Shown here piece by piece: positions 1-31,092 of a stretch of 40,550 bases of DNA. The stretch's first letter is position 1; every line of letters begins with the position of its first letter. The stretch lies in contig MWBL01000012.1 of the NCBI GenBank assembly GCA_002069015.1, forward strand, positions 1 to 40,550. Reading direction: 5' to 3'. The position numbers were made by a program, and so were the translations under genes. The notes under the pieces were generated by a model. It did no database searches and was not told the DNA's origin. It saw nothing but the letters and a program-made list of their open reading frames with translations. The stretch comes from Firmicutes bacterium ADurb.Bin300. Lineage in GTDB: Bacteria; Bacillota; Clostridia; Oscillospirales; Acutalibacteraceae.

Positions 1-993
1 CGGAACAGCGTTTCCGACCTGCCGGAACTGTTGAGTTTTGTTTCCAAGAAATACAAAGTCATCCGGGAAGGATTGAATCCTCGCGCATTCACGAACAGTC
101 GGTACGCGATTGTATTTATAATGGAAATGGTGTCTGTGACCGGTATCAATAGTTGGAGCGGGGCGATTGTCAGGGAATCGTGTCCAGGCAACATGGAAAT
201 TGCGAGTATTTCTAAATTCTTCTGGAAGGTCCTTATAATTGCCTCCTGCAGGAACAAGGGCTATTATTTCCTGAACCTTTTCTGAATGATTCGCCGCGAC
301 ATGGTTATGCACGATATCTGATTTCTCACGCATAATTCTTTGATAGTCATTTTGTGCCGGAGTTGCATACGGCATTTCCTCAGCACCTAATGTGTCAACT
401 AACGGAGGCAGATCAGAAAGAGCCATTTCGCAGGAAACGTAGTTCTTATCCTCGGGTGGGTACTGGAATTCACCATCGCGATAGCCAACAAAAACGACAC
501 GTCTTCTCAACTGAGGTACGCCGTAATCAGCCGAGCATAAGATTTTATATTGAATCTTGTAGCCCATATCCGTAAATTTCTCGATTATGCTGTCTTTTAT
601 CTGTCCACCGAACAAGCCAACAAGACCAGGAACATTTTCAATAACAAAAGCCCTGGGGCGTATTTCATCTACGAGTCGGATATAGGACAAATACAGTTTG
701 TTCCGTGGATCGTCAAATTTTCTCGGTCCAGAAAGAGACATCCCCTGGCAGGGAGGACCGCCAATGATTACATCAACAGCTGCATCCCCAATAAGCGGCT
801 TTATGTCTTTTTCGTATGTCACCTGGGTGATATCACCACAGATTGATTTTGCGCCAGCATGGTTCAATTCAAAAGTTTCCAGCGCCTTTTTATCGTTGTC
901 GATACCCAAGAGAATATTATAGCCTGCACGTTCAAAGCCGCAGGAAAGTCCTCCGGCTCCACAGAACAAATCAATCACATTATACTTTTTCAT
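1..993 (-). CDS. DNA (cytosine-5-)-methyltransferase, partial (runs off window start)
   Basis: This gene encodes a C5-cytosine DNA methyltransferase that would transfer a methyl group from S-adenosylmethionine to cytosine in a specific DNA site. I translated the complement of 1-993: 331 residues are open with no stop, so the C-terminus lies outside the window. Visible motifs are the SAM loop DLFCGAGG near residue 8, the catalytic GGPPCQG with Cys82, the ENV motif at 119-121, a QLRRR motif, and RECARIQSFP followed by RQVGNAVP at the visible end. The target-recognition region between the last two blocks is compact. The start ATG at 993 overlaps the end of the upstream helix-turn-helix gene, so the two are probably translationally coupled. 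It may be an orphan methylase or half of a restriction-modification system whose nuclease lies outside. Sequence specificity cannot be read from sequence. Confidence 0.93.
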   Translation of the reverse strand, partial: MKKYNVIDLFCGAGGLSCGFERAGYNILLGIDNDKKALETFELNHAGAKSICGDITQVTYEKDIKPLIGDAAVDVIIGGPPCQGMSLSGPRKFDDPRNKLYLSYIRLVDEIRPRAFVIENVPGLVGLFGGQIKDSIIEKFTDMGYKIQYKILCSADYGVPQLRRRVVFVGYRDGEFQYPPEDKNYVSCEMALSDLPPLVDTLGAEEMPYATPAQNDYQRIMREKSDIVHNHVAANHSEKVQEIIALVPAGGNYKDLPEEFRNTRNFHVAWTRFPDNRPAPTIDTGHRHHFHYKYNRVPTVRECARIQSFPDDFVFLGNKTQQFRQVGNAVP

Positions 994-1168
994 TGCTACC
1001 ATCATCCTTGCGTCTTTTATCTTCTGGTTTCTCCGTATCGGAGGGGATGGCCCAGGCTTCGCCTAATTTGAAGACCCCCGGAATCCGTCCCTCGGAGCAT
1101 AGCACCTGCACACGGCGCTGTGATATCTGCCACTTTTTTGCGGCCTGACTTGCTGTCATATAGTCCAT
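980..1168 (-). CDS. Small helix-turn-helix DNA-binding protein (excisionase/MerR-like), possible controller of the methylase
   Basis: A 62-residue protein made almost entirely of one winged helix-turn-helix of the excisionase/MerR type. The start is MTASQAAKKWQISQRRVQ, followed by a wing containing GRIPGVFKLGEAWAIP and a charged tail. The start ATG at 1168 is preceded by a good ribosome site (GAGGTGA). The gene overlaps the downstream cytosine methyltransferase by 14 bases. Proteins of this shape often sit next to restriction-modification and mobile genes, but their function is usually unproven. Here the promoter upstream has a palindrome in its spacer, which makes autoregulation reasonable (inference). 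It could instead be a recombination directionality factor, although no integrase is visible in the window. Confidence 0.8.
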   Translation of the reverse strand: MDYMTASQAAKKWQISQRRVQVLCSEGRIPGVFKLGEAWAIPSDTEKPEDKRRKDDGSNEKV

Positions 1169-17217: not shown

Positions 17218-17246
17218 TTGACAAGGAGTCTTTTATTTACTATACT
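17218..17246 (+). promoter_or_regulatory. Promoter P1 of the ThuA-GH31 operon, near-copy of P2 at 27696-27724
   Basis: TTGACA (17218-17223) and TATACT (17241-17246) are separated by 17 bases. The first 12 spacer bases (AGGAGTCTTTTA) match those of P2 upstream of the opposing URO-D operon in all but one position. Overall 23 of 29 bases agree. Such identity in a spacer is not required for a sigma-A promoter and suggests a shared operator. The leader to the ATG at 17282 is about 29 bases. Confidence 0.8.
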
Positions 17247-17281
17247 TAAAAATAACAATAAGTGGCAGTAGGAGATGTCGT

Positions 17282-18031
17282 ATGAACATTACCATATGGA
17301 ACGAGCGCTCCTGTCAGGAGCAAAAGGGCAAACAGAAAAAAGCCTACCCTGACGGGATGCAAAACGCTATTGCAGAAATTTTCTCGGAAGCTGATTTTAA
17401 CGTTACTGTCTCGTCCCAGAATTTAGAGGACGACGGACTGTCCGAGGAGCTTCTTAAAAAAACCGATGTTCTGATTTATTGGGCTCATACGCTTCACAAC
17501 AAGCTTTCGGATGAAACCGCCGAAAGAGTTTTCAAATTTGTAAGCGGCGGCATGGGGGCGGTGTTTTTGCATTCATCGCACGTCAGCAAACCATTTAAGA
17601 GGATTATGGGAACAAGCGGCTCGCTTAAATGGCGAGAGGACGGAAGGCACGAGAGGATTTATACCGTCAGTCCTTATCATCCCATAGCAAACGGTGTGCC
17701 CGAGAGCTTTTTGTTAAAAAAGGAAGAAATGTATTGCGAATATTTTGATATTCCGACTCCTGAAGAGATAATATTTTTGGGATGGTATCCCGGGGGGGAA
17801 TTGTTCAGAAGCGGCTTTACATATCATTGCGGCGAAGGCAGAGTCTTTTATTTTCAACCCGGTCACGAAACATTTCCGATTTATTACGATGAAAATATCA
17901 AAAAGATTTTATATAACGCCGTGCATTGGGCGGGAAAGCAGGACAGTCCCGTTAAAGAGTCCTTTGTAAAGGAGTCCTGCCCCATGGCAATGCCCAAGGA
18001 TATCAACATATCGCTTCCGTTTAAGCGCTGA
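17282..18031 (+). CDS. ThuA-like domain protein
   Basis: A 249-residue protein of the ThuA-like family (class I glutamine-amidotransferase-like fold), commonly found in sugar-utilisation loci. It begins MNITIWNERSCQEQ, and the usual internal blocks are present: DVLIYWAHTLHNKLSDE near residue 62, GGMGAVFLHSSH near 90, SPYHPIANGVPESF near 130 and GRVFYFQPGHETFP near 190. There is no signal peptide. The biochemical role of ThuA proteins is poorly defined; some act with Gfo/Idh/MocA proteins on keto-sugars. Here the next gene is a Gfo/Idh/MocA oxidoreductase only 13 bases downstream, which supports a joint role. The ATG has a GGAGATG ribosome site. First gene of the P1 operon. Confidence 0.9.
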   Translation: MNITIWNERSCQEQKGKQKKAYPDGMQNAIAEIFSEADFNVTVSSQNLEDDGLSEELLKKTDVLIYWAHTLHNKLSDETAERVFKFVSGGMGAVFLHSSHVSKPFKRIMGTSGSLKWREDGRHERIYTVSPYHPIANGVPESFLLKKEEMYCEYFDIPTPEEIIFLGWYPGGELFRSGFTYHCGEGRVFYFQPGHETFPIYYDENIKKILYNAVHWAGKQDSPVKESFVKESCPMAMPKDINISLPFKR

Positions 18032-18044
18032 AAGGAGAATGAAT

Positions 18045-19115
18045 ATGGTTAAAATCGGTTTGATAGGTTGCGGAGGAATAGCCCAGGGAGCGCACATCCC
18101 GGGATATAAAAACATCGAAAACGGCGAAATAGTAGCCGTATGCGATATTCTTCCCGAGAAAATGGAGCAGGCCGAGAAAAAGCTCGGGAAGCAAGTGAGT
18201 AAGTATCTCGATTATAAAGAGATGATTGAAAAAGAAAAGCTTGACATGGTCGATATTTGCACCCCGAACTACTTGCATGCGGATATTGCGATTTACGCTC
18301 TTGAGCACGGTCTTCACGCCTTTTCCGAAAAGCCCGATACCATATCGGTGCAAAGGGTTCTCGATATGAAGCGCGCCCAGGAGGAAAGCGGAAAGCATCT
18401 TATGGTAATGCGAAACAACAGGTATTGGCCGTCCTCCAAGGAGCTTAAAAAAATGATTGAAAACGGAGATTTCGGCGAGATTTATACGGGCAGATGCGGC
18501 TGGATTCGCAGGAGAGGAATTCCCGGAAAAGGCGGTTGGTTTACGACAAAGGCTCAGTCGGGCGGAGGTCCTCTTATTGACCTTGGCGTTCATATGATAG
18601 ACCTTGCAATATATCTTATGGGAAATCCGCGTGCCGTGGCTGTTTCCGGCTGTACATACAGTAAATTCGCAGATAACACGGAAAAGTCTGACAGTATCAA
18701 CGCAACCTTCGGCGTAGCCGTAGAGGACGGAACATTCGATGTTGAGGATTTGGCAATAGGGTTTATTAAATTCGAAAACGGAGCGAGCTTACAAATCGAG
18801 TTCAGCTGGGCATCAAATATCAAGAGGGAAACCACCTTTGTCGAGCTTCGCGGTACAAAGAAGGGTGTAAAATGGTCAAACGGCTCATATGAGCTGTATG
18901 ACGGCAGTAAGGGGTCGAGCCTGAAAAACACAGTTAAAAAATTGGGGCAGTACAGCAAATACAGAAACATTCACGGGGCAAACTTAAGCCACTTTATTAA
19001 TGTCATAGAAAACGTTGAAAAGCCCGATTTTACAATTGACCAGGGTATAAATATGATAAAGATACTTATGGCGATATACGAGTCGGCAGAAACGGGAAAA
19101 GAAGTAATCCTTTAG
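18045..19115 (+). CDS. Gfo/Idh/MocA family sugar oxidoreductase
   Basis: A 356-residue NAD(P)-dependent oxidoreductase that probably acts on a sugar or inositol. The Rossmann motif GLIGCGGIAQGAHIPGY starts at residue 5. The second strand VCDILPEKM, the family EKP motif (HAFSEKPDTIS near 92), and the active-site block GGGPLIDLGVHMIDLAIYLMG near 175 follow in order. The C-terminal Gfo/Idh domain covers residues about 130-350. The start is put at 18045, seven bases after AAGGAG, rather than at the ATG six bases earlier which would lie on top of that site. It is second in the P1 operon between the ThuA-like gene and the GH35 gene. The substrate is not readable from sequence. Confidence 0.93.
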   Translation: MVKIGLIGCGGIAQGAHIPGYKNIENGEIVAVCDILPEKMEQAEKKLGKQVSKYLDYKEMIEKEKLDMVDICTPNYLHADIAIYALEHGLHAFSEKPDTISVQRVLDMKRAQEESGKHLMVMRNNRYWPSSKELKKMIENGDFGEIYTGRCGWIRRRGIPGKGGWFTTKAQSGGGPLIDLGVHMIDLAIYLMGNPRAVAVSGCTYSKFADNTEKSDSINATFGVAVEDGTFDVEDLAIGFIKFENGASLQIEFSWASNIKRETTFVELRGTKKGVKWSNGSYELYDGSKGSSLKNTVKKLGQYSKYRNIHGANLSHFINVIENVEKPDFTIDQGINMIKILMAIYESAETGKEVIL

Positions 19116-19129
19116 AAAGGTCTGATTTT

Positions 19130-20905
19130 ATGAAAGACACCGGCAGTTTAGGAAGCTTTAAGATTTTGGACGGCGACTTTTTATTAAACGGAGAAAAGCT
19201 CAATATTTATTCCGGGGCCATGCACTATTTCAGAGTGCTGCCCGAGTATTGGGAGGACAGGCTCAAAAAGCTCAAGGCAGCCGGGCTTAACACTGTTGAG
19301 ACATATGTTTGCTGGAATCTACACGAGCCGAGGAAGGGCTGCTACAATTTTTCGGGAATGCTCGACATAGTCAGGTTTATTGAAACTGCCGCAAAAATAG
19401 GGCTTTATGTCATTGTAAGACCAGGTCCGTATATTTGCGCCGAATGGGATTTCGGCGGATTTCCGGCGTGGCTTTTGGCAGATGAAAACATCAGAGTTCG
19501 CTGTTTTGACAGGAATTATTTAAGACATGTTTCAGATTATTTCAAGGTGCTGCTTAAAAAGCTTGTCCCGCTTCAAATAACTCACGGGGGCAATATTATT
19601 GCAATGCAGGTTGAAAACGAGTATGGCAGCTACGCAAACGATAAGGATTATCTCGTTTATATAAAGGCTTTATTAACTGAATGCGGTATTGACGTAATGC
19701 TTTTTACCGCTGACGGACAAAGCCGTCATATGCTCTCGGGCGGAACACTTCTTGATGTATACAAAGCGCTGAATTTCAGCGAAGCGCCTAACGAAGCATT
19801 TCCCAATCTTGAGCCGTTTCAAAGCGATAAACCGAAAATGTGCGGCGAATATTGGTGCGGCTGGTTCGACCATTGGGGAGAAAAGCATCACACGACAAGC
19901 CCGGAAAGTCTGAGAACAGCTTTAAGGCAGTTCTTTGAACAGGACGCAAGCTTTAACCTTTATATGTTCCACGGCGGCACAAATTTTAACTTTTATGCGG
20001 GTGCTAACTACCATGACACATACAGCCCCACGGTAACGAGCTATGATTATGACGCACCGCTCAGCGAGCACGGGGGATATACAGAGAAATATCATATAAT
20101 CAGACAGGAGCTGCACAAGCAGCAGGGAATTGAATTGGGCGAGCTGCCGCCCGATACAAAGCTTCAAAAAATAGGGAGGGTTGAGCTTACTACCAGCGTC
20201 TCTCTTTTGGATAATTTCAAAATTCTGTCTAAACGCTGCCGAGACGGTTCCCCTCATTATATGGAGCATTATGGGCAGAGCTTCGGTTATATCCTGTATC
20301 ACACCGATATAATAGGCGATTATCCCGAATCGGATATAACCATCGAAGGTATACACGATATTGCGTACATTTATGCGGACGGAAAGTTCATCGGTAAATT
20401 TGACAGGAGCGAAAAGCCGAAGAAAGGCGCCAAGGCAGAAAGCTTTACCTTCAGGCTTCCCGCGTTTAACGAAAAATGCAGTATTGATATTCTTGTAGAG
20501 GGAATGGGCAGGGTAAACTTCGGGCGTAAAATTTATGACCGAAAGGGAATAAGCGCGATGACAATAGATTACCAGCTCGTTTTCGGTTGGGATGTATATC
20601 CCTTGCCCCTGGATAATATTGAAAACATAATGTTTTTAGGGAATACGGACGAATATCCGTGCTTTTTGAGAGGCTCATTTAAGGCGGATTTAAGGGACGA
20701 CTGCTATATTGATATGAGGAATTTCAAAAAAGGCTGTGTATGGATTAACGGTTTTAATTTAGGCAGATATTGGGAAAAGGGACCACAAAGGTCGCTGTAT
20801 CTTCCCGGCGCGCTTCTTAAAAGTGTTAATACGATTACCGTATTCGAGCAGGAGTGTTGTAAGAAGCGTGAGGTGAGAATTGTTGACAGACCGATACTCA
20901 AATGA
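19130..20905 (+). CDS. Glycoside hydrolase family 35, likely beta-galactosidase
   Basis: A 591-residue GH35 enzyme that would cleave terminal beta-galactosyl (or related) residues. The N-terminal TIM barrel shows SGAMHYFRVLP near residue 28, NTVETYVCWNLHEP near 54, VIVRPGPYICAEWD near 94, the proton donor Glu164 in QVENEYGSY, and the predicted nucleophile Glu240 in CGEYWCGWFDHWG. A C-terminal jelly-roll region ends with WINGFNLGRYWEKGPQ. No signal peptide is present, so it should act on imported oligosaccharides in the cytosol. Length is typical for bacterial GH35. Its end overlaps the sirtuin start by 26 bases in another frame. Confidence 0.94.
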   Translation: MKDTGSLGSFKILDGDFLLNGEKLNIYSGAMHYFRVLPEYWEDRLKKLKAAGLNTVETYVCWNLHEPRKGCYNFSGMLDIVRFIETAAKIGLYVIVRPGPYICAEWDFGGFPAWLLADENIRVRCFDRNYLRHVSDYFKVLLKKLVPLQITHGGNIIAMQVENEYGSYANDKDYLVYIKALLTECGIDVMLFTADGQSRHMLSGGTLLDVYKALNFSEAPNEAFPNLEPFQSDKPKMCGEYWCGWFDHWGEKHHTTSPESLRTALRQFFEQDASFNLYMFHGGTNFNFYAGANYHDTYSPTVTSYDYDAPLSEHGGYTEKYHIIRQELHKQQGIELGELPPDTKLQKIGRVELTTSVSLLDNFKILSKRCRDGSPHYMEHYGQSFGYILYHTDIIGDYPESDITIEGIHDIAYIYADGKFIGKFDRSEKPKKGAKAESFTFRLPAFNEKCSIDILVEGMGRVNFGRKIYDRKGISAMTIDYQLVFGWDVYPLPLDNIENIMFLGNTDEYPCFLRGSFKADLRDDCYIDMRNFKKGCVWINGFNLGRYWEKGPQRSLYLPGALLKSVNTITVFEQECCKKREVRIVDRPILK

Positions 20906-21635
20906 AATATTAAAGCTTTCGGAAATAATTAACGCCTCAAATCGAATAGTCTTTTTCGGAGGAGCGGGCGTTTCCACGGAAAGCGGTATTCCTGATTTCA
21001 GAAGTCAGACAGGGCTTTACAGCGGTAAGCTGCAAACATCTGAGCCACCCGAGATTATGCTTAGCTACGATTATTTCATAAATTATCCCGGGCAATTTTA
21101 CGAGTTTTACAGAAAAAATATGCTTTTCCTTGACGCAAAGCCAAACAAAGCGCACAAAGCTCTGAAAAAGCTTGAGGATGACGGACGGCTGCTTGCGGTC
21201 ATTACGCAAAACATAGACGGATTACATTTTGAGGCAGGCAGCAAAGCTGTATATGAGCTTCACGGCTCATGCTTAAGAAATTACTGTATGTCGTGCAACG
21301 AGCTTTACGCAGTTGATATTATTCAAGAAAGCAAAGAAGTGCCGATATGCTTAAAATGCGGCGGGATTATTAGGCCCGATGTGGTCCTTTACGGAGAGGG
21401 TCTTGACCAAAGGGTCGTAGGGGAAGCGCTTGACGCTATTGAGAAGGCGGACACTCTTATAATAGGAGGGACCTCGCTTGAGGTAAATCCCGCGGCGTCA
21501 TTCGTCGAATATTTCGGCGGCGATTGTTTGGTAATAATTAATATGAGTCCGACAAGATTTGATCAAAGAGCAAGCCTTATAATAAGAAGTCCTATTGGTG
21601 AGGTGTTAGAAGCCTCGGTTAATTGTAAAGGATGA
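20880..21635 (+). CDS. Sir2-family NAD-dependent protein deacylase
   Basis: A 251-residue sirtuin that removes acetyl or other acyl groups from lysines using NAD. Motifs in order are GAGVSTESGIPDFRS (near residue 28), TQNIDGLH (near 115), the catalytic His in YELHGS (near 130), two Cys pairs for zinc (CMSC near 138 and CLKC near 159), and GTSLEVNPA near 200. The start codon is TTG at 20880, two bases after AGGTGAG; a second TTG follows directly. It starts inside the GH35 gene and its stop shares ATGA with an alternative start of the next gene, so it belongs tightly to the operon. A sirtuin in a sugar operon is unusual; it may control an acylation-sensitive partner such as an acyl-CoA-dependent enzyme (inference). 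Confidence 0.94.
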   Translation: MLTDRYSNEILKLSEIINASNRIVFFGGAGVSTESGIPDFRSQTGLYSGKLQTSEPPEIMLSYDYFINYPGQFYEFYRKNMLFLDAKPNKAHKALKKLEDDGRLLAVITQNIDGLHFEAGSKAVYELHGSCLRNYCMSCNELYAVDIIQESKEVPICLKCGGIIRPDVVLYGEGLDQRVVGEALDAIEKADTLIIGGTSLEVNPAASFVEYFGGDCLVIINMSPTRFDQRASLIIRSPIGEVLEASVNCKG

Positions 21636-21640
21636 TTGTT

Positions 21641-22597
21641 GTGAGTGAGAAGCAAAGATTTATCAAAGCTCTAAAGAGAGAGCCGATAAAAGGGCATGTT
21701 CCAACCTTTGAGCTTGTATTTTTTCTGACTCTTGAGGCTGTCGGCAAGGTGCATCCGGACCATAGGCGATACAGCCAGTGGAATCAGATGAGCGAAAAAG
21801 AAAAACGCCTTCAGCTTACCGATATGGCGGACAGCTACATAGACGTTGCGAAGAAATACGGACACAGCGCTATTTTCGTTCATCCCAACCCCAATGATTT
21901 TGAAAATATCGTAAGAATACTTGAGACAATAAGGGAGAGGTCCGGTGATGAGTATTTCCTCATGCTGCACGGTGACCCGACCTTCAGCATGCCCGACGGA
22001 AAGAATATGACTGAATTCACACGCAGACTCTATGAGGACGGCGAAGCCCTTAAGCATGAGGCGCGGGCAAAGCTTGAAATGAGGTTGGATTTTGCCGAAA
22101 GAATGCTCAAATATCCCGGTCTTCTTGACGGGTTTGCGCTTTGCTCCGACTATTGCTTTAACGTCAATCCTTTCTTTACTCCCGAAATGTTTTCCGAGTT
22201 TATAGCTCCGTATCTGCAGGAGGTTTTAGAGGGCTATCGTTCTATGGGTTATTACTCCATAAAGCATACTGACGGAAATATAATGCCCATAGCCGACCAA
22301 ATGGTTCAGTGTAAGCCTGACGCGCTCCATTCGCTGGACCCGCAAGGCGGTGTGGACTTAAAGGAAATGAGACGGCTTTATTCCGACAAGGTTTGCCTTA
22401 TAGGTAACGTTAACTGCGGACTGCTTCAAACCGGTACAAGGGAGGAGTGCGAGGCGGACGTGCGCCGCTCTCTTAGGGACGGGATGGCAGGATACGGTTA
22501 TATTTTCTCGACCTCAAACTGCGCGTATACCGGACTTAGTCTTGACAGATATGAGCTTATGAACCGTATTTGGCGTGAGGAGGGTATATATAAATAG
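21641..22597 (+). CDS. URO-D superfamily methyltransferase-like protein A
   Basis: A 318-residue protein with the uroporphyrinogen decarboxylase (URO-D) fold. In anaerobes this superfamily includes the corrinoid methyltransferases MtaA and CmuA. It has the inner-barrel block IGNVNCGLLQTGTREE near 260 and an SNCAYTG near the C-terminus that matches the third zinc Cys of MtaA-like proteins. However, the MtaA zinc motif HxCxGN is altered: the equivalent stretch reads KHTDGN, around His209-Asn213 in this numbering. It is therefore probably not a heme enzyme and may use a different metal site. GTG at 21641 is preferred because AAAGG is eight bases upstream; an ATG nine bases earlier touches it. 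It lies in the P1 sugar operon, apart from the corrinoid protein on the other strand. Confidence 0.85.
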   Translation: MSEKQRFIKALKREPIKGHVPTFELVFFLTLEAVGKVHPDHRRYSQWNQMSEKEKRLQLTDMADSYIDVAKKYGHSAIFVHPNPNDFENIVRILETIRERSGDEYFLMLHGDPTFSMPDGKNMTEFTRRLYEDGEALKHEARAKLEMRLDFAERMLKYPGLLDGFALCSDYCFNVNPFFTPEMFSEFIAPYLQEVLEGYRSMGYYSIKHTDGNIMPIADQMVQCKPDALHSLDPQGGVDLKEMRRLYSDKVCLIGNVNCGLLQTGTREECEADVRRSLRDGMAGYGYIFSTSNCAYTGLSLDRYELMNRIWREEGIYK

Positions 22598-22642
22598 CGG
22601 CTTTAAGCTTATGGCTTGAGAATAATTTTAGGGGGCAAGATT

Positions 22643-24337
22643 ATGGGCGATATCTTTCTTAAGCTTGCAAGAATAGTAATGGTTGCATGCATAGTTGTTT
22701 CATCATTTTTAAGCTTTATGGCACGCACCGACCAAGCCGAACCGACTCTTGAGCCGCCCGCTTGGCCTACATGGGTACATGAGCATTGGGTATGGGAAAA
22801 TGCAGGAACTCAGGAATCGGCGCTGCAGTTTGCCTCGGATTTTATTGAAAAAGGAATTCCCGTCGGCGCCGTGATAATAGACCGTCCCTGGGCTACCGAT
22901 TCTAATACGTTTATTCCCGATCCCGAGAGATATCCGGATTTGAGCGAATATGTGGACGTATTTCACAGCATGGACATCAAGGTCATAATGTGGGCTACGA
23001 GCGTTATCAACGAAACTGCCTCTAATTTTCAGGAGGGCAAGGACAAGGGATACTTTCTAAGCGGCGGTAAAACGGTCAAATGGTGGGGCGGCAAGGGGGC
23101 CTTTATTGATTATACAAATCCACAGGCTGTCGATTGGTGGCACAGTCAAATGGATAATATACTCGATATGGGCATAGACGGCTGGAAGGTTGACGGAACA
23201 GACCCGTATGTAATGCTTTTGATGCCCGCCGCGGCGCACGACGGCAAGCTTATTACCTGGTCGGATTATAAGGACCAATGCTATCGTGATTTTTTTGAAT
23301 ATACACGCTCTAAGCTCGGGAACGACAGAGTGATTTCGGCAAGACCGGTTGATGACCAGCTGCTTCAGGTGGGGCTTCCGCTTGTTTCAACAAGCCGTGA
23401 CATCAATTTCGCAGGATGGGTAGGCGATAATGACAACGATTGGGGCGGACTTCAGCACGCGCTGAATAATATGTTTTCCTCCGCCGAGTTTAACTTTGTC
23501 AGCTATGGCTCCGATATAGGAGGCTTCAGGTCCGACGGGAACACATATAAAGACGTATTTATCAGATGGGCGCAGCTCGGCGCGTTCTGTCCCGTAATGG
23601 AAAACGGCGGCAGCGGCGAACACCGTCCCTGGGCGTATGACGAGCAAACGCTTGACATATACAGAAAATACACGATACTGCATCATCAGCTTATTCCGTA
23701 CATTTACAGTCAAGCTGCATACTCCTATGAGCTTGTAAAGCCCACAATGCGTCCGCAGCCGGGAGAATACATATATCTTCTCGGTGACGATATACTCGTT
23801 GCCCCGATGTTTGAGCAGGGGGACGAGCGCACGATTTTATTCCCTCAGGGTGAGTGGATTAGCATTGTTGATGATACAAAGCAGTATACCGAAGGAATAA
23901 AAAAGCTTAGTTTCTCGCTTGAGGATTTCCCGGCATTCATTCGTAAGGGAGCAATAATCCCGATGAATGTCACTTGTGATGCCACGGGACACGGAACGAG
24001 TTTTTCGGACGGCTACACAACGGTTTTGATCTATCCCCAGCAGGGTGAAAAGAAATTCGGCTTGTATGAGCAGGATAAAGAAGGCTCCTTAATTTCCTAT
24101 GTTAAGAACGACGGTTCCTTAAACATAAGCTGCACCGCGACAGAGAGGTCGCTTTTATTCAGAGTTTACGGCGAAAGTGATGCCGCATCGGTTAAAACCG
24201 CAAATGGCAATCTGCCGAGAGCTCTTTCTATGCAGGCGCTTACCGCTATGCAGTCGGGGTATTTCATTGACGGTGATGTGCTGTGGATTGCGGTTAAGAA
24301 CGCTCAGGACGGAATTGGTCTAAATGTGACATACTGA
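22643..24337 (+). CDS. Glycoside hydrolase family 31, short form with N-terminal signal or anchor
   Basis: A 564-residue GH31 enzyme (alpha-glucosidase/alpha-xylosidase family). The TIM barrel starts early with WVHEHWVWENAGTQE. The predicted nucleophile is Asp184 in GWKVDGTDP and the acid/base is Asp262 in WVGDNDNDW, followed by SYGSDIGGF. Beta-domains follow the barrel. The usual N-terminal beta-sandwich of GH31 is missing, which makes it shorter than most. Residues 7-26 form one hydrophobic segment after a Lys/Arg, ending FMARTDQA; it is a signal peptide or membrane anchor, so the enzyme probably acts outside the membrane. The ATG at 22643 follows GGGGGC. It is the last gene of the P1 operon. 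Which glycosidic bond it cleaves is unknown. Confidence 0.88.
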   Translation: MGDIFLKLARIVMVACIVVSSFLSFMARTDQAEPTLEPPAWPTWVHEHWVWENAGTQESALQFASDFIEKGIPVGAVIIDRPWATDSNTFIPDPERYPDLSEYVDVFHSMDIKVIMWATSVINETASNFQEGKDKGYFLSGGKTVKWWGGKGAFIDYTNPQAVDWWHSQMDNILDMGIDGWKVDGTDPYVMLLMPAAAHDGKLITWSDYKDQCYRDFFEYTRSKLGNDRVISARPVDDQLLQVGLPLVSTSRDINFAGWVGDNDNDWGGLQHALNNMFSSAEFNFVSYGSDIGGFRSDGNTYKDVFIRWAQLGAFCPVMENGGSGEHRPWAYDEQTLDIYRKYTILHHQLIPYIYSQAAYSYELVKPTMRPQPGEYIYLLGDDILVAPMFEQGDERTILFPQGEWISIVDDTKQYTEGIKKLSFSLEDFPAFIRKGAIIPMNVTCDATGHGTSFSDGYTTVLIYPQQGEKKFGLYEQDKEGSLISYVKNDGSLNISCTATERSLLFRVYGESDAASVKTANGNLPRALSMQALTAMQSGYFIDGDVLWIAVKNAQDGIGLNVTY

Positions 24338-24342
24338 TAAGC

Positions 24343-24379
24343 AAAAACAGAGGCAGGCAAAACGCCTGCCTCTGTTTTT
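24343..24379. terminator. Bidirectional terminator between the two convergent operons
   Basis: A perfect 16-bp stem, AAAAACAGAGGCAGGC with its complement, around the loop AAAAC. It has an A-run on one side and a T-run on the other, so it can end transcription from both strands. It separates the GH31 gene (plus) from the URO-D gene (minus), which end within 50 bases of each other. Confidence 0.92.
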
Positions 24380-24383
24380 ATTG

Positions 24384-25337
24384 TTATTTGTAATGCCTGT
24401 ATTTTTCCAAGCCGTCCAGGACTGCAGCCATGTTTTCAAGTGGGATATCCCTGTTAAACTCTGCATACAGACCTAAACCGCCCTCAGGAAGGTAAAGAGC
24501 CTCAACGCATTCGCCTACGTGGTCCATAAGCTCCGGGCGTGTCCCGAACGGGAAAAGCTGTCTGTCAAGGTCAAGATTAATAGGAATTTTTCCCTTACAT
24601 ACTCTGACAAGATTAGAAAGCCCATTCGCCCTGAACTGTGGATTTATCATATCCACACCGCACTGCTTAAGGTCGTTCATTATTTCCCAGATACAGCCGT
24701 CCGTATGCATATATATGAGAGTTTCGGGATTATGCCGCTTTATTATGGAGTACATTTTTGCATAGCAAGGTCCCAGCAATCTGCGCCATCTTTCGGGTCC
24801 GACAGCCAAACCGTTTTGCATTCCCAAATCATCCCCGAAGGAAACCATCCGGTCGATATTCGGCAGTATCGCCTCTATCTGGCGGCAGTTATACTCAAGT
24901 ACCTTGGAAATGAGCGTTTTTATCTCTTCGCCTTCTTCGGCAAAGTAAATCATTGCATCCTCAAAACCGCAAAGGTCTAAAAGTCTTAAATACATAAAGC
25001 CGTGGGGCAGCCTGCCATCACGGTTTTTCGGTATTTCAAGTGAAAAGATATCATCGGCGCTTTTTATCGGGTGTCCTTTGACCATTGAATCCATGCCTTC
25101 CTCTATGTTCTCCCAAACACAGCCCCATTCATCTATATGAGTGCCGGCGCGATACTGCTCGGACATGGGGATTTTATTCTCATCAAATGTGGGATTGGGG
25201 AAAAACTGAGGGTAATCTAAAAGAAGACGCTGCAATTCCCCGCGATGCCTAATCCATGCCGCGGGCTGAATCCCTACCGAAACGGGAATGGTTTCGGGAT
25301 AATTGTATGTTATCGCCTTGTAAAGCAGCTCATTCAT
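24384..25337 (-). CDS. URO-D superfamily methyltransferase-like protein B
   Basis: A 317-residue URO-D fold protein, the last gene of the P2 operon, five bases after the corrinoid protein stop. The segment HIDEWGCVWEN near residue 67 and SFGDDLGMQNGLAVGPERWR near 166 are typical of the corrinoid-linked methyltransferase branch, not of heme-synthesis HemE. At the MtaA zinc-motif position it reads MHTDGC (His211, Asp213, Cys215), and the late Cys is replaced by AEFNRDIPLEN. Metal ligands thus differ from MtaA. It may be a substrate:corrinoid methyltransferase or the enzyme passing the methyl group on. Adjacency to the corrinoid protein makes that protein its likely partner. The ribosome site is weak, so translation coupling is likely. 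Confidence 0.88.
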   Translation of the reverse strand: MNELLYKAITYNYPETIPVSVGIQPAAWIRHRGELQRLLLDYPQFFPNPTFDENKIPMSEQYRAGTHIDEWGCVWENIEEGMDSMVKGHPIKSADDIFSLEIPKNRDGRLPHGFMYLRLLDLCGFEDAMIYFAEEGEEIKTLISKVLEYNCRQIEAILPNIDRMVSFGDDLGMQNGLAVGPERWRRLLGPCYAKMYSIIKRHNPETLIYMHTDGCIWEIMNDLKQCGVDMINPQFRANGLSNLVRVCKGKIPINLDLDRQLFPFGTRPELMDHVGECVEALYLPEGGLGLYAEFNRDIPLENMAAVLDGLEKYRHYK

Positions 25338-25342
25338 ATCAA

Positions 25343-25975
25343 TTACCGAAAATATGAAAGGGCAACTTCCGCCGCGGACGCCGCGTCAACCGTGTAAGCG
25401 TCGGCGCCTATGGAATCGGCAAAGCTTTGAGTAACGGGCGCACCGCCGACCATTACCTTTACGCTGTCGCGCAGTCCCGCCGCTTTGAGGTCTTCTATGA
25501 TATCCTTCTGGGCGGTCATCGTCGTCGTAAGCAGAGCCGAAAGGCAGACGACTTTCGCGTCGCTCTCCCTGACCGCCTCGACGACCTTGTCCCCGCCGAC
25601 ATCGACTCCTAAGTCAATACACTCAATCCCGACGCCCTCAAGCATCATTTTTACAAGGTTTTTGCCGATATCGTGCAGGTCTCCCTTAACTGTACAGATA
25701 ATCGCTTTGCCGACAGGCTGTACGCCTTCCTTAGTAAGCGCGGGCTTTAGGACGGCAACTCCGGCATTCATTGCCCTTGCGGCTATAAGCACCTCGGGAA
25801 CATAAATTTTATTTTCCTTAAACTTTGAGCCTACCTCCATCATTGCGGCGATAAGAGCGTCGTTCAGAATTTCTTTAGCGGAAAGTCCATCTGCCAAAGC
25901 CTGCCGGACAAGCTCCTCGACGTTCTTTGCTCTTCCCTTTTGGAGCATTTCATTAATTTGGACTAATGTGGACAT
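25343..25975 (-). CDS. Corrinoid (B12-binding) methyltransferase carrier protein
   Basis: A 210-residue corrinoid protein of the MtaC/MtbC/MttC type, which carries a methyl group on its cobalt between two methyltransferases. The N-terminal four-helix B12-binding cap spans residues about 5-85. The Rossmann B12 domain follows, with DLHDIG (Asp99, His101, Gly104; His101 is the lower cobalt ligand), the conserved LSALLT around Ser146 and VGGAP at 177-180. Length and domain order are normal for the family. It lies between DUF2284 and URO-D protein B in the P2 operon and has a good AAGGGG ribosome site. A third URO-D protein heads the same operon. The methyl donor is unknown. Confidence 0.95.
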   Translation of the reverse strand: MSTLVQINEMLQKGRAKNVEELVRQALADGLSAKEILNDALIAAMMEVGSKFKENKIYVPEVLIAARAMNAGVAVLKPALTKEGVQPVGKAIICTVKGDLHDIGKNLVKMMLEGVGIECIDLGVDVGGDKVVEAVRESDAKVVCLSALLTTTMTAQKDIIEDLKAAGLRDSVKVMVGGAPVTQSFADSIGADAYTVDAASAAEVALSYFR

Positions 25976-26008
25976 AAACTGAACCCCTTCCGATATAGAT
26001 TTTTATAA

Positions 26009-26527
26009 TTAATAAATTATCAGGCAAAAATATGTAACGGTATTGGGACCGTTGTGATAATTGATATTGCAGTCGGCGGCAAGCTTTACGACATCTATAC
26101 CGCACGCCTCCACAGAGACTATCATCTTTTCGCTATGGCGGCAAGGAAGGTCCGGATACAGGCATTCCTCACAAAGTCTGCACGCCCCGCAGCCTAAGGG
26201 AATATGGGGGATGTTTTCTTTTTTTAAACGAGAGACTGCTTTGCGCAAAATCCCGTCTGCTTGCTGCCCGACTCTTTGCATGCCCTCAAAATCAAAAGAA
26301 TCCTCAATCTCTCCTAAATGCGTAAAGACAAGCGCCCGTTCAAATTTAAGTATTTTGTTTTTTATTTCTTCCGTTTCCCCCACACCGGGCGGACAAGCCC
26401 ACGATTTTCCGTAGTTACCGCACATATTCGCCTCACACGCCTTGCGTACCTCGGCGGAAAAAGGAATATCGGATGTTTTTATTACAGCGTGTTGAAATAC
26501 ACCTTCATATTTAGAGATATCGATCAT
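26009..26527 (-). CDS. DUF2284 cysteine-rich metal-binding protein
   Basis: A 172-residue protein of the DUF2284 family. Two cysteine-rich regions are visible: CEANMCGNYGKSWACPP near residue 32, and LGCGACRLCEECLYPDLPC near 112. The second resembles a ferredoxin-type [4Fe-4S] site; the first may bind another metal or cluster. There is no signal peptide. The function is not established. Its position between a URO-D protein and a corrinoid protein suggests a redox or assembly role in the corrinoid cycle, for example supplying electrons to reactivate oxidised cobalt (inference). It lies 15 bases after the URO-D stop. The ribosome site is weak, so it is probably translationally coupled. Confidence 0.85.
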   Translation of the reverse strand: MIDISKYEGVFQHAVIKTSDIPFSAEVRKACEANMCGNYGKSWACPPGVGETEEIKNKILKFERALVFTHLGEIEDSFDFEGMQRVGQQADGILRKAVSRLKKENIPHIPLGCGACRLCEECLYPDLPCRHSEKMIVSVEACGIDVVKLAADCNINYHNGPNTVTYFCLIIY

Positions 26528-26542
26528 AACAATGAAATCGCT

Positions 26543-27676
26543 TTATGGGCTTATTTTACCGAAAAGCTCCTTCTTCCTGTCAAGATAATATAAATAATCC
26601 TCCTCGGGAACATTGGGCGGGCAACGGTGGTCGCAAAACGGGATATAGCCGCCTCTTTTTACGAGCGGTACAAGCGTTTCAAGGTATTTGTCTATTTCAT
26701 TCCTGCCCGCGCCGAGCTTCATTTTATCAACTCCGCCCATAATGCGAAGCTCTTTCCCGTAAGTCGCGAAAAGCTCAGCCGGGTGAGCGCAGGAATTAAC
26801 CTCAAACGGGAACAGGCAATTAATTCCGCCCTCAAGAAAATAGGGCATTAAGGGTCTGACATCACCGTCGCAGTCAGTATACCATATATCGATACCGAAA
26901 TTTTTAAGTTTTTTATTAAGACGCTTATATCGCGGCATAACAACATCCTTAAAAAACCCGACGCTTACTATGGGGCCGCCGTTATAGCAAATATCCTCCC
27001 AGCCGCTCGCATAATCAAAATCGAATTGGGGCAGAAGCACATCAAGAGCGTTTTCAACTAACATACATACGGTTTCAACCATATCCTCGACCATATCGGG
27101 ATAGTCATATATGGCATAGCATATACCCTCAAAGGTCAGCATATCCCTGATTTTACCTATCATCGAGCCACAATGCACACCCAGGGGATAGTCTCGCTCG
27201 CCGCGCGGGGAGTGCATAGCCTTAAGCAGCTCAACATTGATTTTTCTTGACTCGTCTTTCGGATTAAAGCGCTCTTTTTTCACCTTAGCCCAGTCGTCCG
27301 GCGTGACAACGCTCGATTTCATATAATGGGGTATAGAGCTTTTGCCGTCCTTTTTAACCTCGGCAAGAAGGCCGTCCGAATTCTGATATATCTTATATTC
27401 CTTGTTTTCGCTTATGACGGTCTCGGGGAAGCCCGGAGACATCCAATAATTTCCGCCGACAGACTCGATCCTGTCGAAGGAAAAAAACTTATTTGCCTGA
27501 CCTTCGCCTTTAATACCGTTGTCGGCGAACATTTTCCAGACGGTATAATTCTCGGACCAATAACCGAACTCCATATTGAAGGAGCGATCGGTTTCCTTAT
27601 AATGCATTTGGGCATTAAAGCGTTCACGATCGGTCATTCTTGAATCCCATTTATTCAATAAAGGAACTATTGTCAT
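26543..27676 (-). CDS. URO-D superfamily methyltransferase-like protein C
   Basis: A 377-residue URO-D fold protein at the head of the P2 operon. The N-terminus holds MTDRERFNAQMHYKETDR, a common start in the corrinoid-linked URO-D proteins. Other family blocks are PLGVHCGSMIG near residue 164, SGWEDICYNGGPIVS near 224 and IMGGVDKM near 315. At the MtaA zinc-motif position it reads YTDCDGD (Cys269, Asp272), so the Cys is kept but the His is not; a further DHRCPPNVPEED lies near the end. I start it at ATG 27676, which follows GGGGTGAG. A longer frame from TTG 27724 would translate the promoter itself and is rejected. It may bind the methylated substrate, but that is inference. Confidence 0.87.
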   Translation of the reverse strand: MTIVPLLNKWDSRMTDRERFNAQMHYKETDRSFNMEFGYWSENYTVWKMFADNGIKGEGQANKFFSFDRIESVGGNYWMSPGFPETVISENKEYKIYQNSDGLLAEVKKDGKSSIPHYMKSSVVTPDDWAKVKKERFNPKDESRKINVELLKAMHSPRGERDYPLGVHCGSMIGKIRDMLTFEGICYAIYDYPDMVEDMVETVCMLVENALDVLLPQFDFDYASGWEDICYNGGPIVSVGFFKDVVMPRYKRLNKKLKNFGIDIWYTDCDGDVRPLMPYFLEGGINCLFPFEVNSCAHPAELFATYGKELRIMGGVDKMKLGAGRNEIDKYLETLVPLVKRGGYIPFCDHRCPPNVPEEDYLYYLDRKKELFGKISP

Positions 27677-27695
27677 TAGCTCACCCCATAAAATG

Positions 27696-27724
27696 AATAT
27701 AAACGATAAAAGACGCCTTGTCAA
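27696..27724 (-). promoter_or_regulatory. Promoter P2 of the URO-D/corrinoid operon, near-copy of P1
   Basis: On the minus strand TTGACA (27719-27724) is 17 bases from TATATT (27696-27701). The spacer begins AGGCGTCTTTTAT, matching P1 at 17218-17246 at all but one of these 13 positions. The predicted transcript starts only about 15 bases before the ATG at 27676, so no cobalamin riboswitch can fit in the leader. Confidence 0.8.
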
Positions 27725-28014
27725 TGTTTACCTGTAGGCAAAAAGTGAAAAGCTGAAAACATAAAATATTCGAAAATGTATGAAATTTTACTTAATAATA
27801 TAGTGGTAAAGATGGATAAATAGAAATTACTGATACTGCAATTATTTTACAACAAATAAAAATCGCAAACAGAGTACGAAAGCTAAGGAAACTTACAATT
27901 CGTAAATTAAAAAAAAGTAAAAGGGAAAATGCAAACAATTGTAACAAAGGGTCAAAATTTATTGACTTAACAAAGATATTGTGGCAATATATGGATAATA
28001 AGGAGTGTTTTATT
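27725..28014. other. AT-rich intergenic region, nothing recognised
   Basis: About 290 bases of AT-rich sequence between the divergent P2 operon and the small plus-strand gene. A TTGACT at 27962-27967 could be a -35 box, but no well-placed -10 follows. Frames here are short or of low complexity, and I see no RNA gene or strong repeat. Confidence 0.5.
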
Positions 28015-30175: not shown

Positions 30176-30226
30176 TACATCACTCCTTAAAAGCGATAGG
30201 TCTTTTATCTTGCTTTATTTATTCAT

Positions 30227-30254
30227 AGTATAGCATAAAGGTTACAAAATGTAA
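30227..30254 (-). promoter_or_regulatory. Promoter of the hydrolase-flavodoxin operon, overlapped by an operator
   Basis: On the minus strand TTACAT (30249-30254) and TATACT (30227-30232) are separated by 16 bases. The -35 lies inside the palindrome 30240-30256, so a bound repressor would block polymerase. Confidence 0.55.
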
Positions 30255-30342
30255 CCCTTTTATTACAAATTTGTATTATTTCATAAAGAATTTGCTTTTA
30301 ATATTACAAATATGATACAAAATAACTAATATTTTTTGTATC
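30240..30342. promoter_or_regulatory. Cluster of palindromic TetR-type operators
   Basis: Three dyads share a TACAAA/TTTGTA core. GGTTACA-AAA-TGTAACC is at 30240-30256, TACAAATTTGTA at 30264-30275, and GATACAAAA with TTTTGTATC at 30314-30322 and 30334-30342. They lie between the divergent hydrolase and TetR genes and are good candidates for binding of the TetR protein. Confidence 0.65.
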
Positions 30343-30429: not shown

Positions 30430-31092
30430 ATGGCCGTAATTAAACCATGTCATCATAAGCCGACTTTTGACAATATTCCCGAGGAAAAGCGGCAGAGAAT
30501 TCTAAAGGTAGCTACTAATGAATTTGCGTCATATGGTTTTGAAAATACGTCTATTGAGAGGATAGCCAAAAAAGCCGACATCAGCGTCGGCTCGATTTAC
30601 AGGTATTTTGACAGCAAAGAGGATATGTTTATAACGGTTGTTCACTTAGGGCTTTCCCGGTTGGAAAAGCTTTTGACCGAGCTTTATTTAAAGGACGAGG
30701 ATGTAGCAATAAAGGTAGAAAAAATAATCCGAGAGCTGATTGACTTTTCTCGCAAACAGCCTGATTTGATAAAGCTTTACGGAGTTCTTACAGCGTCAAA
30801 AAGCTCTCCGCTCCTGTTTTCGCTTGCTCAGGAAATGGAGGCAATAACGGCAGGAATTTATACTAGGGCGATAATCGAGGGTCAAAAGACGGGTGATGTA
30901 AGAGGCGATATTGACCCGGCATTTTTTGCGTTTTTGCTTGACAGCTTGTTTATGTCGCTTCAATTTTCTTATGCAGGCGATTATTATAAAAAAAGGTATG
31001 AGGTTTATAACGGGGAGGGTATTTTTGACGACGACGAGTTCGTTATTGAGCAGACTCTTAAATTCATTAAGGCGGCGTTTAACTTCAAATAA
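30430..31092 (+). CDS. TetR/AcrR family transcriptional regulator
   Basis: A 220-residue TetR-type repressor. The N-terminal helix-turn-helix is clear: KRQRILKVATNEFASYGFEN, then TSIERIAKKADISVGSIYRYFDSKEDMF (about residues 20-65). The rest is the helical ligand-binding and dimerisation domain, which cannot be matched to a ligand by eye. The gene is divergent from the hydrolase-flavodoxin operon and is followed 12 bases later by a TIM-barrel gene. It probably represses both its own transcript and the divergent operon through the palindromes in the gap. The downstream PIG-L and dockerin genes may be in its transcript. Confidence 0.94.
   Translation: MAVIKPCHHKPTFDNIPEEKRQRILKVATNEFASYGFENTSIERIAKKADISVGSIYRYFDSKEDMFITVVHLGLSRLEKLLTELYLKDEDVAIKVEKIIRELIDFSRKQPDLIKLYGVLTASKSSPLLFSLAQEMEAITAGIYTRAIIEGQKTGDVRGDIDPAFFAFLLDSLFMSLQFSYAGDYYKKRYEVYNGEGIFDDDEFVIEQTLKFIKAAFNFK

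Follow-up and report, generated by a model that had tools for sequence, protein, structure and literature searches.

The 2.2 Mb genome of Firmicutes bacterium ADurb.Bin300 contains, on contig MWBL01000012.1, two operons that face each other and that are headed by closely similar promoters, designated P1 (plus strand) and P2 (minus strand). The analysis described here covers positions 1-40,550 of the forward strand of this contig (40,550 nt; referred to as the window) and concerns the letters that P1 and P2 share in the spacer between their -35 and -10 boxes, referred to as the element. The original prediction was that this element represents a new operator, through which both operons are switched on together.

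The two convergent operons and their promoters

P1 and P2 do head convergent operons, as had been proposed, and a terminator-like hairpin lies between these operons (Table 1). Consecutive genes are separated by 7, 14, -26, -4, and 18 bases in the plus operon and by 15, 33, and 5 bases in the minus operon. The description of the plus operon as a set of sugar enzymes is incomplete, since this operon also encodes a URO-D superfamily protein, UROD2; the minus operon, by family assignment, encodes the URO-D/corrinoid/DUF2284 set that had been described (i.e., UROD1, DUF2284, CORR, and UROD3).

Both promoters show the features typical of sigma-A (sigma-70-type) promoters, i.e., a TTGACA hexamer and a TATAAT-like one separated by 17 bp, with a gene downstream; each matches the sigma-A consensus hexamers at 11 of 12 positions, and the distance from the -10 box to the start codon is 35 nt at P1 and 19 nt at P2. 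The predicted agreement between P1 and P2 at 23 of 29 positions was confirmed, with identity at 11/12 hexamer and 12/17 spacer positions. The spacer agreement falls entirely inside the stretch AGGNGTCTTTTAT; identity breaks off abruptly beyond the element, which contains one internal difference. By eye, AAGGCGTCTT of P2 is palindromic at 8 of 10 positions and its P1 counterpart at 6 of 10, while no palindrome or close repeat was reported across the core of either promoter. The P2 core pairs with positions 28000-28013, 280 bp away (86% of 14). Duplication of the promoters along with their genes was rejected because a comparison of 22 window proteins, including UROD1, UROD2, and UROD3, gave no match between any two of them at E 1e-3 and because the flanks of P1 and P2 do not align.

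Table 1. Features of the window discussed in the text (identities refer to the relative L009/G003)
Feature	Position	Strand	Remarks
P1	17218-17246	+	sigma-A-type promoter TTGACA-AGGAGTCTTTTATTTAC-TATACT, 17-bp spacer, heads plus operon; AGGAGTCTTTTAT in spacer
ThuA-family protein	17282-18031	+	first gene of plus operon; PF06283; 73% identical in G003
GFO/IDH/MocA-family oxidoreductase	18039-19115	+	85% in G003
GH35 beta-galactosidase-like glycosidase	19130-20905	+	77% in G003
Sir2-family NAD-dependent deacylase	20880-21635	+	65% in G003
UROD2, URO-D superfamily protein	21632-22597	+	MtaA/CmuA-like, below cut-off
GH31 alpha-glycosidase	22616-24337	+	
Terminator-like hairpin	24343-24379		16 pairs, between convergent operons
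UROD3, URO-D superfamily protein	24384-25337	-	
CORR, corrinoid (B12-binding) protein	25343-25975	-	PF02310 and PF02607 above cut-offs
DUF2284 protein	26009-26527	-	
UROD1, URO-D superfamily protein	26543-27676	-	first gene of minus operon
P2	27724-27696	-	sigma-A-type promoter TTGACA-AGGCGTCTTTTATCGTT-TATATT, 17-bp spacer, heads minus operon; AGGCGTCTTTTAT in spacer
Near-copy AAGGAGTGTTTTAT	28000-28013	+	1 mismatch to element; 280 bp from P2, opposite direction; ATG next
Palindrome GGTTACA-N3-TGTAACC	30240-30256		over -35 box of hydrolase gene; edge of 51-bp block kept 49/51 in L009
TetR-family regulator	30430-31092	+	79% in L009; 2.7 kb from P2

Likeness of P1 and P2 relative to other promoters

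Within the window, 123 promoter-like sites (at least 9 of 12 hexamer matches) formed 2577 pairs with the same spacing. P1-P2 was the best of these, agreeing at 12 of 13 consecutive spacer positions (runner-up, 10); random 17-mers from the window attain 12/13 in 8 per million draws, which corresponds to approx. 0.02 pairs expected in the window. A genome-wide search for TTGACA-17-TATAAT with up to one mismatch yielded 194 sites (91 forward and 103 reverse), as compared to 12 and 11 for the reversed pattern, which served as the control for pattern searches. Pair statistics were derived from the 100 sites listed of these 194. Four of the 4950 pairs, including P1-P2, reached 12 of 17 spacer letters, where column-wise draws give a null of 5.3e-4 per pair or approx. 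2.6 pairs; the longest shared spacer run was the 9-base run of P1-P2 (next longest, 7 bases), where the null is 9e-5 per pair or approx. 0.45 expected. Given these genome-wide expectations, the P1-P2 match, while notable locally, is not out of the ordinary for the most similar pair in a genome.

Parts of the promoters were also counted as words in the window. The nine-mer GTCTTTTAT occurs 7 times as compared to 0.57 expected; among the 18432 nine-mer types that contain two G or C, 6 reach this count. Beyond P1 and P2, its copies lie in coding sequence (592 and 17843), before the hydrolase gene (30200), and elsewhere (1012 and 39986); as it is found in coding and non-coding positions alike, this word is not promoter-specific. 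With up to three mismatches, AAGGNGTCTTTTAT has 40 window matches (18 expected), and part of this excess represents, by eye, ribosome-binding sites (e.g., at 28000 and 17052).

Copies of the element in the genome and in relatives

The 19-letter pattern TTGACAAGGNGTCTTTTAT was found exactly twice in the genome, at P1 and at P2, hence on the same contig. When up to three mismatches were allowed, 7 sites were found (control, 4), and 25 sites matched the 13 letters from the spacer when one mismatch was allowed (control, 16). Among the 23 one-mismatch 13-mers other than P1 and P2, the match at the -35 position never exceeded 3 of 6 letters, and an ATG follows closely in six cases, including the near-copy at 28000-28013, which, read by eye, is probably a ribosome-binding site because an ATG comes next. 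On these counts, a regulon within the genome was rejected.

Relatives were represented by a genus set of 22 genomes (i.e., 21 besides the genome analyzed here) and a draw of 398 genomes from the family (397 besides this genome). With up to one mismatch, the element was matched in 1 of the 21 other genus genomes and the reversed control also in 1; the element match, in G017, was rejected as an operator copy since it appears, by eye, to be coding. The 397 other family genomes contained no exact copy; one-mismatch matches occurred in 7 of them (control, 3 of 397), and in none of these seven was a TATAAT-like box seen, by eye, at the right distance after the match. A genus- or family-wide operator was likewise rejected on the basis of these searches. 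UROD1 loci, many of which were short, were represented by 80 retained of the 374 found in named genomes; a scan of these with up to three mismatches produced a single match (L063), located immediately before an ATG. The exact pattern had no match in IMG/VR, the 13-mers of the element did not occur in a literature search, and TTGACAAGG did not occur among the literature matches listed. The proposed check for further copies thus identified no additional promoter-like site with the element in the genome itself, in the 21 other genus genomes, or in the 397 other family genomes.

Conservation of P2 in a close relative

UROD1 is present in 3 of the 22 genus genomes, i.e., the genome analyzed here, G003 (86% identity), and G001 (67% identity). 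Locus L009 and genome G003 apparently represent one relative, as their letters upstream of UROD1 are identical, and are referred to as L009/G003. The P2 orthologue in L009/G003, TTGACA-AATAGATTTTTTTTGTA-TATATT, retains both hexamers and the 17-bp spacing and keeps 7 of 12 element letters, five of which are T. Its spacer agrees with that of P2 at 9 of 17 positions, comparable to the upstream flank (45 of 89 aligned). As a yardstick from the same two genomes, a hydrolase-TetR intergenic block 2.5 kb from P2, picked after the alignment had been viewed, was kept at 49 of 51 positions. Over 29 positions, the orthologue is alike at 21 to P2 and at 20 to P1; since a promoter with 7 of 12 element letters still reaches 21/29, the 23/29 match between P1 and P2 is modest and little of it is special. 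No promoter like P2 was seen, by eye, upstream of UROD1 in G001.

The P1 counterpart in G003 is cut off, as the first gene runs beyond the end of contig G003:C172; when contig ends overlapping this one were looked for, the same contig alone was returned, and G003 yielded no match to GNAT, which is encoded upstream of P1. ThuA genes (approx. 50% identity) were present in 17 further genus members; their flanks, covered for up to 1.5 kb, contained none of the other genes of the window, and their promoters were therefore not used. G003 nevertheless holds 5 of the 6 genes of the plus operon, with the contig ending inside the fifth, and the partner operon thus exists in this relative, where UROD2, in the plus operon, and the UROD1-CORR pair are located on separate contigs. 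In a comparison of L009:6076-6787 with 24384-26527, the corrinoid gene was found directly after UROD1 in the relative. The L009 contig yielded homologues of neither DUF2284 nor UROD3; the gene content of the minus operon therefore differs between genomes. The Sir2 gene overlaps both of its neighbors within the glycosidase/methyltransferase operon, and this gene order is kept in G003 (L164).

The nearby TetR-family regulator

The statement that no matching regulator gene is visible nearby needs to be qualified. A TetR-family gene is located close to P2 and its neighbors are conserved in L009; its likely operator, the palindrome GGTTACA-N3-TGTAACC, is nonetheless a different sequence. With up to three mismatches allowed, neither P1 nor P2 gave a match to this palindrome, and TetR as a common regulator acting through it was rejected. 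The divergent hydrolase/TetR intergenic region (30226-30330) contains, within the 49/51 block, the palindromes GGTTACAAAATGTAACC and TACAAATTTGTA, which are likely TetR autoregulatory operators. A weaker site, TTAC-N5-GTAA, occurs at 27893-27905, approx. 170 bp upstream of P2; the window has 3 such sites as compared to 0.61 expected.

Gene neighborhoods and corrinoid methyl transfer

CORR has the B12-binding domains expected for a component of a corrinoid system (PF02310 and PF02607). All three URO-D superfamily proteins passed the Pfam cut-off, while NCBIfam cut-offs were not reached; UROD2 scored 27 to 45 bits against MtaA/CmuA-like models with cut-offs of 235 to 400. In sequence comparisons with PDB, UROD2 had one borderline match (CdmB, E 0.0009) and UROD1 had no match at E 0.001.

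Homologues of UROD2 (E 1e-60 or better) were found in 46 of the 398 family genomes, the genome analyzed here included. In L015 and L029, UROD2 homologues with 71-72% identity are located directly after UROD1 and CORR. With the corresponding genomes (G122 and G291) left out, a sample of 20 loci from among the best family matches included 10 with a CORR homologue near the UROD2 homologue, always on the same strand, and 8 with a DUF2284 homologue (on the strand of UROD2 in five cases and on the opposite strand in three); 13 of the 20 had one or both. UROD1 homologues (approx. 30% identity) were found at 4 loci and a GFO homologue at one, while homologues of ThuA, GH35, GH31, and Sir2 were found at none of the 20 at E 1e-5. 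The plus operon thus carries a gene whose usual neighbors sit in the facing minus operon. UROD2 is likely to be a methyltransferase of a corrinoid system, and UROD1 may be a substrate methyltransferase. The two operons look functionally linked, more strongly than the original prediction stated, and such a link does not depend on the element acting as an operator. The eight loci with a DUF2284 homologue were L227, L229, L233, L235, L236, L243, L244, and L246; a role of DUF2284 in corrinoid methyl transfer is suggested.

Elsewhere in the window, a C-5 cytosine DNA methylase gene (1-1005, minus strand) runs off the window start. A known structured RNA in the window was rejected, as no Rfam family reached its gathering score.

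Discussion

An operator would be expected to be conserved at orthologous promoters and to recur upstream of related genes. At the single readable P2 orthologue, 7 of 12 element letters are kept, and further copies upstream of related genes were found neither in the genome nor in its relatives. We thus favor, with some reserve, the explanation that P1 and P2 are two ordinary sigma-A promoters whose shared spacer letters represent a species-local resemblance, i.e., a chance likeness picked among many promoters, rather than a conserved operator. Since the extra letters are found in this genome only and are missing at the readable promoter of the relative, they are probably not a switch. What stands of the original prediction is a pair of promoter-like sites with an unusual spacer match that head two convergent operons with plausibly cooperating products; a new operator is not supported, given the 7/12 letters in L009/G003, the lack of further promoter-like copies in the genomes searched, and the lack of a reported palindrome.

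Under this explanation, P1 and P2 would both be strong promoters, each of which would start transcription of one operon, and both operons would hold components of the same corrinoid methyl-transfer system; UROD1, DUF2284, CORR, and UROD3 would form the minus-strand part and UROD2, together with the glycosidases and the oxidoreductase, the plus-strand part. The operons would converge on a shared terminator, and the balance between them would result from similar promoter strength (11/12 hexamer matches and a 17-bp spacer at both) and not from a shared regulator.

Several observations weigh against this explanation. The likeness of P1 and P2 exceeds chance within the window, where approx. 0.02 such pairs are expected, and chance would not predict that the operons downstream of the two promoters appear to be linked in function. 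A third near-copy of the element is located 280 bp from P2 (28000-28013), though it resembles a ribosome-binding site. The conservation test consists of one P2 orthologue and is one-sided, as the P1 orthologue lies beyond a contig end. In addition, among the 80 UROD1 loci retained of 374, a CORR homologue was found at four (L009, L015, L029, and L057) and a UROD2 homologue with at least 50% identity at four (L015, L017, L029, and L047), which lends weak support to a part of UROD1 in a corrinoid system; at 10 further family UROD1 loci (flanks of up to 1.5 kb), CORR was found in 4 and a UROD2 homologue (31-71% identity) in 4.

Operators located within the spacer are known from sigma-A promoters as a general class, and P1 and P2 resemble this class in that extra shared spacer letters accompany consensus -35 and -10 boxes; they differ from it in that no palindrome was reported across their cores, no matching regulator was found, and the element is not conserved at the readable P2 orthologue. 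If the element were nevertheless a species-specific operator, a regulator would bind to the spacer of each promoter and switch the operons together. P1-P2 being the best spacer pair in the window, with the longest shared run among the genome sites listed, is consistent with such an operator, as is the presence of only two exact genome copies, both heading operons that look linked; however, L009/G003 keeps 7/12 letters at P2 even though it has both operons, neither core had a palindrome reported across it, and no regulator with a matching site was found, so that we regard this alternative as unlikely, although it deserves consideration. A fuller version, in which the species-specific spacer operator synchronizes convergent operons that form a split pathway of corrinoid demethylation and glycoside cleavage, perhaps for O-methylated sugars, is more doubtful.

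The sharp ends of the match, its one internal difference, and the restriction of exact copies to two on one contig, not seen in the relative, could also reflect short local copying (approx. 20 bp) that moved one promoter core to the other operon, in which case the match would represent descent and not regulation. A tract of 20 bp is short for such an event, though, no other trace of exchange was found, and G003 has the same P2 hexamers, which are hence older; we consider local copying improbable. Control of both operons by the nearby TetR-family regulator appears very unlikely: the gene is 2.7 kb from P2 with neighbors conserved in L009, and TTAC-N5-GTAA lies approx. 170 bp upstream of P2, but the likely TetR operator is located at the divergent promoter of the regulator itself, and a search allowing three mismatches detected it at neither P1 nor P2.

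With regard to known corrinoid systems, corrinoid-dependent methyltransferases are outlined for acetogens (PMC13222342) as a scheme of MTI, corrinoid protein, and MTII (e.g., CdmBCA and O-demethylases). The locus described here resembles the systems presented there in that methyltransferase candidates of the URO-D superfamily are encoded together with a corrinoid protein, and differs from them in that the URO-D/MtaA-like UROD2 is encoded in a separate convergent operon with glycosidases. The mlp clusters, with soluble coenzyme M methyltransferase homologues (PMC10418091), likewise have bacterial MtaA/CmuA-like genes next to a corrinoid protein gene; with scores well below the family cut-offs (27 to 45 bits versus 235 to 400), UROD2 is at most a tentative member of this family. 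A literature search joining corrinoid, glycoside hydrolase, and O-methyl terms found no publication holding all of them.

A new regulon of small size would be defined if the element were an operator, which the evidence makes unlikely. The gene neighbors point instead to a system that may demethylate a methylated glycoside: a methyltransferase-type gene in a glycosidase operon faces an operon with its usual neighbors, and methylated-glycoside demethylation would thus be a testable pathway.

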